From Alloalcanivorax gelatiniphagus (GTDB lineage Bacteria > Pseudomonadota > Gammaproteobacteria > Pseudomonadales > Alcanivoracaceae), in assembly GCF_005938655.1 (NCBI RefSeq), contig NZ_VCQT01000045.1, forward strand, positions 124,001 through 188,000: 64,000 nucleotides of DNA, in the 5' to 3' direction. Shown here piece by piece: positions 61,781 to 63,649 of this stretch. Under the pieces are notes generated by a model that did no database searches, was not told the origin of the DNA, and saw only the letters and a list, made by a program, of their open reading frames with translations. Every line of letters starts with the position of its first letter. The first letter of the stretch is position 1. Both the position numbers and the translations under genes were made by a program.

Positions 61781-63649
61781 TTACGGGTCCGCGAAGGCGC
61801 GGGCGCCGTCACCGCTTTGCAGCGACAGAATCTCCAGCAGCCGGGCGGCGGCGTAGAGACCGTCATCAAACCCGAACCAGCGGTCGGCGAAGCATATATG
61901 CCCTTCGCCGTCGCCGGCCAGCGGCGCCCCGCTTTCCCTGAGCCGCGCCTTGAGGGCCGTGGCGCCGGCGGGGGCGATCACCGGGCGACCGCCCAGCTCG
62001 CGCACCGGTGTGGCCAGGGCACGGCTGCATTCTACGTCGAACAGCACGTCGCTGCCCGGATTACGGCCCAACAGATCACGGGCCAGCAGCATCAGCACCC
62101 GCTCCGCGGGCACGGTGGCGCCGTCGGCGGCCACCACCGTCAGGCGGGTGCCATCGGCGCTGAGCCCCAGGCCCACTTCGGCGCCGGCCTCGGGCACCGC
62201 CCGGGACAGCGGGGTCTGGCCGGCCGGGGTCACCGTGCAGCCGAGTTCCTCCAGCAGGGCGGCGGCGTTGCCGTCGGCGCTGTCCACCACCACCTTCATG
62301 GGGCGGGCCAGAACGATGTCATCGCCCAGGTCGCGCAGATAGCGGGGGCCGAGCTGGCGCGGCTCGCGCTGGCCCTGGCCCCGGTGGAGGCGTCCTTCCC
62401 GCAGCCGCTGCCCGAGGGCGGTGAGGCGTTCATCGGTGAGGGTGTCGCCGTCCAGGCGGACTTCCAGGGTCGGATGGCCGTCGGCGTCGCCGGCCAGATA
62501 CAGGCCGGCGCGGGTCTCCAGCACTTCCGTGGCGTAGTAGAGCAGCGGGCGGCTGGCGACCCCCAAATCGAGCACCTGCCGGCCGCTGGCCAGCAGGCCC
62601 TCCGCCAGCGCTTCGTAGAGCGGCTCCGGGGCATGGGGCTCGCGGGCCAGGAACAGGTCGTGTTCGCCGCCATCGCCGGCCTCGCTGCCGATGGTCTGGC
62701 CCAGCTGGTGCAGCGATTCCCGGTCCAACCCTGGCCCGCCGAGCCGGTCGCCGAGGAACAGATGCGCCGGCAATTCCGGCCCGGAGGGTGGCGGTGGTGC
62801 GGCCACCGGCGTGGCGACTGGCTTGGAGGGTGCCGCTGGCGCCGGCGGCGGCTTAGGCGTGCCACGGGCCGGGGGCGCCTTGGCGGCGTTGGCGGCACGG
62901 CGGCGGTGCAGCACCGTCAGCACCAGCCCGGCGGCCAACAGCATCAGCGCCACCGTGCCGCCCACCGGCAACAGCAGCGTCTGCCACAGCGCCGCCGCCG
63001 GCGGCACCGTGACGGTCAGGGCCAGGGGCTTGCTGGCGGCCCGTGCCCGGGCCCCGTCATCGGCGGGTTGCCCGGGGCCGAGCTTGGCCACGGTGAGACC
63101 GTCCTGCTCCAGGGTCAGGGTGGCCCCGGTGGGCAGCCGGCGGTCGGCGCCGGCAAGCCAGGCGGTCAGAGGGTGCTCCAGAATCAGGGCGCCGCCGGGG
63201 GCGGCCCGGGCCAGCAACAGGGCCGGTTGGGCGCCGCCCCGGGAGGACAGGGCGGTACTGCCCGGCTCCGCCAGTTGGCGCAGCAAATCCTGCATGACAT
63301 AGGACAGGTCCGGGTCCAGGGCGTTGGCGGTGGGCACCAGAATCAGCCGGCTGCCGCCCTCGCCCTGATCTTGGTTCGGCAAATCTTCGCTGACCAGGGC
63401 GCCACCGGCCAGGGCATCGGCGGCGCGGGGGCTGTCCGCCAGCCGCGCCAGGCGTTGCCGGTCACCGCTGACCAGGCCCCCCAGTGAGGCGGCCAGGTCC
63501 CGGGCCACGGTGTGCGATTGGCTGACCGCCTGTTGCCGTGCCTGCAACTGGAAATAATGATCCAGACCGCCGGCCAGGGCGCCGATCACCAGCGCGGCTA
63601 ACAGCAGTAGCGGCGCCGGCCCGCTGAACGGGTTCTTGTTTTGCGCCAT
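61781..63649 (-). CDS. AlgC-like membrane-anchored protein with a degenerate, truncated phosphomannomutase domain
   Basis: A 622-residue protein in the algC position between dut and argB. Residues 12-30 and 222-247 are membrane helices around a periplasmic domain, then an Ala/Pro-rich linker (252-292), then a phosphomannomutase-like region (about 293-610). Alignment landmarks to AlgC are clear ([52 protein letters not shown]). The phosphoserine loop TGSHNP is replaced by AGDADGHP (386-393), the metal loop DGDGDR by SADGTR (497-502) and the sugar loop GEMSGH by GDGEGH (579-584). The fourth domain with the phosphate-binding loop is absent. It should not catalyse phosphoglucose/mannose conversion. 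Confidence 0.85.

Follow-up and report, generated by a model that had tools for sequence, protein, structure and literature searches.

The stretch of DNA analyzed here, referred to as the window, consists of 64,000 nucleotides of Alloalcanivorax gelatiniphagus (contig NZ_VCQT01000045.1 of GCF_005938655.1, positions 124,001-188,000) and contains, between dut and argB, a gene for a membrane-anchored 622-residue homolog of AlgC whose active site is lost (61781..63649, minus strand, from the ATG at 63649 to the stop at 61781). AlgC is known for its role in the synthesis of alginate, lipopolysaccharide, and rhamnolipid. By position the gene is an algC ortholog, and its dead state is a property of the clade and more than chance, because 12 of 13 congeners carry the altered gene without stops and because the ratio of nonsynonymous to synonymous rates (omega) lies far below neutral simulations. 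The explanation that we favor, with somewhat better than even confidence, is a pseudoenzyme maintained by selection, in which a membrane-tethered three-domain mutase fold would act by binding a partner while the mutase step has moved to a soluble paralog, PMM2.

An AlgC framework retained in its genomic slot had been recognized in a preliminary description made from the sequence, and both points are borne out. A phmmer search aligned residues 290-619 of the window protein with residues 5-363 and 6-364 of the AlgC chains 2fkm and 1k35 (E = 3.3e-67 and 1.7e-66, respectively). The three alpha/beta domains I-III of the phosphohexomutase fold are present by homology, as remnants of domain I (residues 294-430, 62360..62770) and domain II (431-512, 62114..62359) and as domain III (513-612, 61814..62113), the best conserved of the mutase half; these and all other features of the gene lie on the minus strand. 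In AlgC numbering, with the serine of TGSHNP taken as S108, the substitutions are Y17D, R20G, S108D, K118E, D242S, D246T, K285E, H308A, E325D, and S327E. The phosphoserine loop TGSHNP now reads AGDADG, with aspartate for the serine (62477..62494), the metal loop DGDGDR reads SADGTR (62144..62161), and the sugar loop GEMSGH reads GDGEGH (61898..61915). D244, R247, G307, and H329 are retained. The chain stops at about AlgC residue 367, so that domain IV is gone together with R421, S423, N424, and T425 of the phosphate loop RASNT, and about 19 AlgC residues ahead of the metal loop are absent (junction at 62207..62218). The altered loops, the missing fourth domain, and the deletion before the metal loop all agree with what the preliminary description had reported. 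The serine nucleophile, the metal loop, and domain IV are parts of the phosphohexomutase reaction, and since these are affected we infer that the window protein is no longer capable of phosphoryl transfer. Loss of the nucleophile, of two of the three metal aspartates, and of domain IV, combined with purifying selection, makes it a pseudoenzyme, as had been proposed.

The loss extends well beyond the window. Of the 46 family genomes, 44 yielded the slot gene; the two others, G041 and G044, in which it stayed unresolved, were dropped, and these assemblies are 64% and 89% complete. The serine nucleophile and other residues are lost in 14 of the 44, all with an open frame. Twelve of these are among the 13 genomes of the genus, and their matches are free of internal stops: clades C1-C3 (eight genomes, the window in C1) are dead and without domain IV, and clade C4 (four genomes) is dead with domain IV retained and RASNT changed to RLCPL. 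The two further dead copies, G030 and G031, carry the labels of two other genera; G031 is the mildest, with S108G, K285R, H308P, and N424T among its changes and its metal aspartates retained. At the former serine, C1 has D or N, C2 has Q, C3 has D, and C4 has a gap. The window and its two nearest relatives have lost R20, K118, K285, and H308 along with the entire domain IV loop, and R20 is retained in G007 and G010; in C4, R20, K118, H308, H329, and three of the four RASNT-loop residues are changed, with K285, E325, S327, and R421 retained. G005 is the sole congener that keeps the loops, but it carries H308R. In the other 30 of the 44 family genomes the serine loop and the metal loop are retained; among these, G034 and G035 carry Y17S and H308Y.

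For the order, 115 genomes were searched and 97 matched, of which nine were left out (four Alcanivoracaceae, two fragmentary, three with distant paralogs only). In the remaining 88, every AlgC retains the serine and the metal aspartates: 75 hold all 17 checked residues, 11 differ only by S327T in the sugar loop (L189, L192, L196, L201, L203, and others), and two carry Y17N and H308R, one of them also with a gap at T425. The AlgCs of L184 and L188 (genomes G108 and G069, of one family of the order) combine Y17N and H308R with intact serine and metal loops, H308R being common to G005. A single similarity scan covered the best 80 of 473 relatives, from which 78 loci were tabulated; L035 and L036, which seem to be genomes G009 and G003 over again, do not figure in the loop and scan-locus tables. 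The checked residues are complete in 67 of the 78, and three of the 11 incomplete loci (L081, L090, L112) have gaps resembling truncated sequence. L053 has S108G as its single change. Multi-residue losses outside the family occur in two loci from metagenome-assembled genomes, L054 (Methylothermaceae) and L080 (Methylococcales), in AlgC-type frames of 799 and 843 residues; other mutase-like matches exist in these genomes, with nothing decisive on a backup enzyme.

More than one loss of the active site appears to have occurred among related lineages. A tree of rpoB, gyrA, and argB from 17 genomes places C4 outside the group of G005 and C1-C3 (support 100/100), and a single clade of the 12 dead congeners is rejected on these markers by the approximately unbiased (AU) test (p-AU 0.0009 for DNA, 0.0046 for protein). 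On the argB tree of 47 rows, the 14 dead copies need four changes, three of them forced by well-supported branches. Repeated loss of the active site with the membrane part and the fold kept suggests a second, non-enzymatic job.

Selection on the dead gene is evident in its mutase part. Pairwise maximum-likelihood omega is 0.14-0.19 in six pairs within C1-C3 and 0.10-0.13 in two pairs of C4, as against 0.010-0.054 in eight intact pairs, and omega = 1 is rejected in all eight dead pairs. Neutral simulations of the mutase part, evaluated with the same type of estimator, gave mean values of 0.67-0.85, and the lowest of 72 single values was 0.37; the dead domain is therefore constrained, in line with the earlier view that the gene is kept by selection. 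The earlier reading as a whole was to fall if close relatives had intact loops and the window copy alone proved to be disrupted, at a high nonsynonymous rate. The survey of the relatives' dut-argB slots revealed the opposite of a lone disruption, although the nonsynonymous rate is clearly raised over intact relatives. In the N-terminal part, omega is 0.11-0.25 in seven dead pairs and 0.03-0.20 in intact pairs; one further dead pair (G001/G011) has 0.69, not different from 1. By region, C1-C3 give 0.212 for domain I, 0.153 for domain II, 0.098 for domain III, and 0.106 for the Cache core of the membrane half, with overlapping intervals. Across the genus, conservation is highest in periplasmic residues 141-160 and in residues 521-540 and 581-610 of domain III. 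Nei-Gojobori estimates are higher: C1-C3 pairs give 0.29-0.41 in the mutase part, and the window compared with G003 and G009 gives 0.61-0.62 in the N-terminal part. Five argB pair fits with absurd values, probably from rows trimmed unequally, were dropped. The open frame by itself is weak evidence, because a single neutral lineage of 622 codons remains stop-free in 6-10% of simulations and because an antisense open reading frame (ORF) of 579 residues overlaps the gene. This ORF (61748-63487, plus strand) is probably a shadow of the high GC content at third codon positions, which is 0.87 in the slot gene.

The membrane half was described earlier as sensor-like, and the predicted structure agrees. 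Transmembrane helix 1 (residues 12-30, 63560..63616), assigned by hydropathy, opens a long model helix of residues 12-71, and transmembrane helix 2 (residues ~226-247, 62909..62974), likewise assigned by hydropathy and within model helix 221-255, is followed by HRRR. Between them a periplasmic Cache-type fold is predicted (residues ~33-219, 62993..63553). No match to a Pfam Cache profile was obtained for the window protein with E values as high as 1 allowed, and one of ten relatives scanned (L141) has a weak dCache_1 match below the cut-off (E = 0.0039). The membrane half still aligns in dead copies, intact family members, and named Pseudomonas-type loci. After helix 2, a Pro/Ala-rich linker (residues 250-293, 62771..62902) of 44 residues with a proline plus alanine fraction of 0.61 replaces the longer mixed segment of intact relatives; it is predicted to be disordered, with a predicted local distance difference test (pLDDT) score below 50 at residues 255-277, and is the sole long stretch of the protein with such scores. 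The corresponding segment has 36-54 residues and a Pro/Ala fraction of 0.47-0.64 in the 12 dead congeners, versus 78-100 residues of mixed composition in intact copies outside the genus (0.12-0.35 in the family rows). The HAMP profile matches neither the window protein nor, in Pfam, the intact relatives, whose segment is HAMP-like by eye only. The suggestion that the protein signals across the membrane is weakened by the replacement of the longer segment in the dead congeners. In G005, which still has its loops, the linker is already eroded (68 residues, 0.53), so that membrane coupling seems to have loosened ahead of the loss of catalysis in this genus.

A second, full-length mutase, of the kind that the preliminary description had proposed to look for, exists elsewhere in the source genome. 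Four PGM_PMM_I matches were found there, namely the window gene, a GlmM-like protein (contig C1) and a PGM1-type protein (contig C11), both assigned by eye, and PMM2 (contig C18), a complete soluble mutase. PMM2 is neighbored by pgi, a nucleotide-sugar dehydrogenase of UDP-glucose type, and a galU-like gene just below the NCBIfam cut-off. All 14 genomes whose slot gene is dead have a full-length PMM2, as do 17 of the 30 whose slot gene is intact (Fisher p = 0.0034, kinship uncorrected). Its loops are intact in the 13 genomes of the genus, and in G030 and G031 it is known from the full-length match; pgi adjoins it in 17 of 18 loci checked, G030 and G031 not among them. In clade C3 (G007:C70, G008:C1, G010:C77; loci L025, L023, L024), a second, truncated copy lies behind the soluble PMM2; it has 64% identity over residues ~4-263, retains TGSHHP and DGDGDR, has GGAGSP in place of GEMSGH, and lacks domain IV; judged by these residues, it is a separate pseudo-mutase in the same genomes. 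G001 has two soluble PMM2 genes on one contig (C8:47674-49038 and C8:72399-73742), one beside pgi; at the other checked locus no pgi was found.

Selection keeps the Cache-membrane half and the fold, the latter most of all in domain III, and a tethered binding protein is the most economical reading of this. The Cache-type periplasmic domain and the two transmembrane helices would tether the phosphohexomutase fold through the flexible Pro/Ala linker, and mutase activity would have passed to PMM2 in a galU-ugd-pgi-PMM2 cluster. Through the surviving fold, chiefly domain III, the protein would bind a partner at the inner membrane. Soluble sugar-nucleotide enzymes or the envelope-polysaccharide machinery are candidate partners, with PMM2 and its cluster conjecturally first. 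GlmM, on which this binding mode is modelled, is itself an active enzyme and is not membrane-anchored. One report describes GlmM as binding and inhibiting the membrane cyclase CdaA, with domain IV dispensable (PMC8573169), so that a three-domain phosphohexomutase fold is capable of protein binding. The likeness would be that a phosphohexomutase fold binds, and thereby acts on, an enzyme linked to the membrane. Regulation of the GlmM-CdaA type itself was considered for the window protein and rejected for want of a DAC domain in the source genome. Also rejected as a partner site, and not used as evidence, was an AlgC-specific conserved surface patch (D444, R590, Y599, E606), for which a structural role is as likely: R590, Y599, and E606 also occur in the 13 AlgCs of the order with these positions printed, and the D444/R590 charges are swapped in PMM2, where R and D are commonest. 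L037 and L038 (apparently G014 and G039) and L053 were not part of this comparison. Three of these residues lie in a 20-residue segment (61826..61885) whose R590, W591, G593, D596, Y599, R603, and E606 do not vary among the 53 slot proteins in alignment A1.

Several points weigh against the tethered binding protein. Constraint on the mutase part is, by region, about 4-9 times weaker than in intact copies, which makes part of the change simple relaxation. The linkers of the dead G030 and G031 are not Pro/Ala-rich (76 and 89 residues, 0.22 and 0.26), and linker loss thus does not go with the dead state in general. For the conserved pair D444/R590, the role may be no more than that of a structural salt bridge. 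No match to the DAC domain (PF02457) was found in the source genome by a search that was positive in 11 of 14 known genomes. The partner is a guess, and the loss of mutase activity is judged from sequence. Finally, the argB data by themselves are compatible with a single clade of the 12 dead congeners (p-AU 0.109), and the slot-gene protein tree joins them (100/99); separate losses therefore rest on the combined species markers. On the gene tree two changes suffice for all 14 dead copies, the long branches of G030 and G031 meeting there, and we read four losses from the species markers, with two as the bare minimum.

The main rival, which we consider improbable but serious, is a relic in slow decay beside its operon neighbors, with PMM2 covering the mutase step and the frame remaining open since deletions or frameshifts may harm dut and argB. 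The raised omega, the eroded loops, and, in the genus, the eroded linker fit such decay, as does the finding that every loss falls in a genome with PMM2, an association that reflects few independent events. Decay sits poorly with omega far below the neutral control, with a frame open in 14 of 14 dead copies, with a membrane half that still aligns, and with a slot gene present in nearly all family genomes. It is rather unlikely that the Cache-membrane half alone matters, the mutase remnant being ballast that stabilizes or anchors it. Residues 121-180 of the periplasmic part are well conserved in the genus and the Cache core omega in C1-C3 is near the 0.083 of intact copies, but domain III is equally constrained and holds the protein's most conserved stretches, and an isolated sensor without output would be odd given the loss of the longer segment after helix 2.

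A C-terminal domain that binds sugar phosphate without turnover and reports across the membrane, as the preliminary description had suggested, seems very unlikely. Most phosphate and sugar contacts and all of domain IV are lost in the window protein, so that it probably cannot hold a sugar phosphate; C2 and C3 are likewise without domain IV, the RASNT loop of C4 is largely changed, and the linker is altered. In its favor are the sensor-like periplasmic half, the contacts that C4 retains, and the vertebrate PGM5 (aciculin; PDB 6y8x, 6y8y), which one report presents as an inactive member of the superfamily that still binds glucose 1-phosphate (PMC7761743). The least probable reading is that the protein remains an enzyme and catalyzes a new reaction through other cleft residues. 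The fold is conserved and the window clade has D or N at the old serine, but the loop residues differ among the sister clades, and in domains I-II, inspection by eye of the residues that never vary among the 12 dead congeners showed no evident new polar cluster.

The superfamily already has an inactive member in PGM5 (PMC7761743), for which a structural role has been proposed. It is unlike the window protein in having four domains and a conserved catalytic acid and base (PMC7761743), and it shares 16% identity with the window model. Also close are Pseudomonas AlgC (PMM/PGM; PDB 1k35, 3bkq) and its membrane-anchored long form, which resembles the window protein in domains I-III and the dut-algC-argB slot and whose membrane half aligns with that of the slot proteins; the window protein differs from it in lacking the active-site loops, domain IV, and the longer segment after helix 2. 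An AlgC frame of at least 745 residues, long enough for the membrane half, is present in 70 of the 88 order genomes examined. Cache receptors such as KinD, DctB, AHK4, and chemoreceptors likewise have the predicted periplasmic fold between two transmembrane helices, but in the window protein a dead cytoplasmic mutase on a Pro/Ala linker takes the place of a kinase or chemotaxis domain.

The neighbors in the conserved slot are argB downstream (60849..61748, minus strand) and part of dut upstream (63739..64000, minus strand), both taken from the ORF list and synteny. The dut-algC-argB order holds in the window, and of the 44 resolved family genomes all have argB and 43 have dut, the locus of G005 having a short upstream flank. 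A pair of palindromes resembling repetitive extragenic palindromic (REP) elements lies between dut and the slot gene (63669-63719), and the REP-like palindrome GGCTTCAGCCGCGA has 18 matches in the window with at most two mismatches, versus 1.4 expected. An Rfam scan of 60000-64000 gave nothing at the gathering threshold. An ORF at 41374-42267 looks by eye like an Abi-type (abortive infection) protein.

Among the matches listed by a literature search, titles and abstract openings describe no inactive or membrane-sensor AlgC. It is possible, though we are inclined to doubt it, that long-form AlgC is an unrecognized receptor, a membrane Cache sensor with a cytoplasmic mutase, in which the receptor or scaffold role rather than catalysis is selected, so that the active site was discarded more than once after a soluble paralog took over, giving rise to a sensor-pseudomutase class. 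If AlgC chemistry has indeed been discarded repeatedly with the sensor and the fold kept, the long form would have a function absent from the literature searched. The Alcanivoracaceae offer a series, from intact through the linker-eroded G005 to dead with domain IV and dead without it, which would separate this second function from catalysis and make it testable in non-pathogenic marine bacteria.
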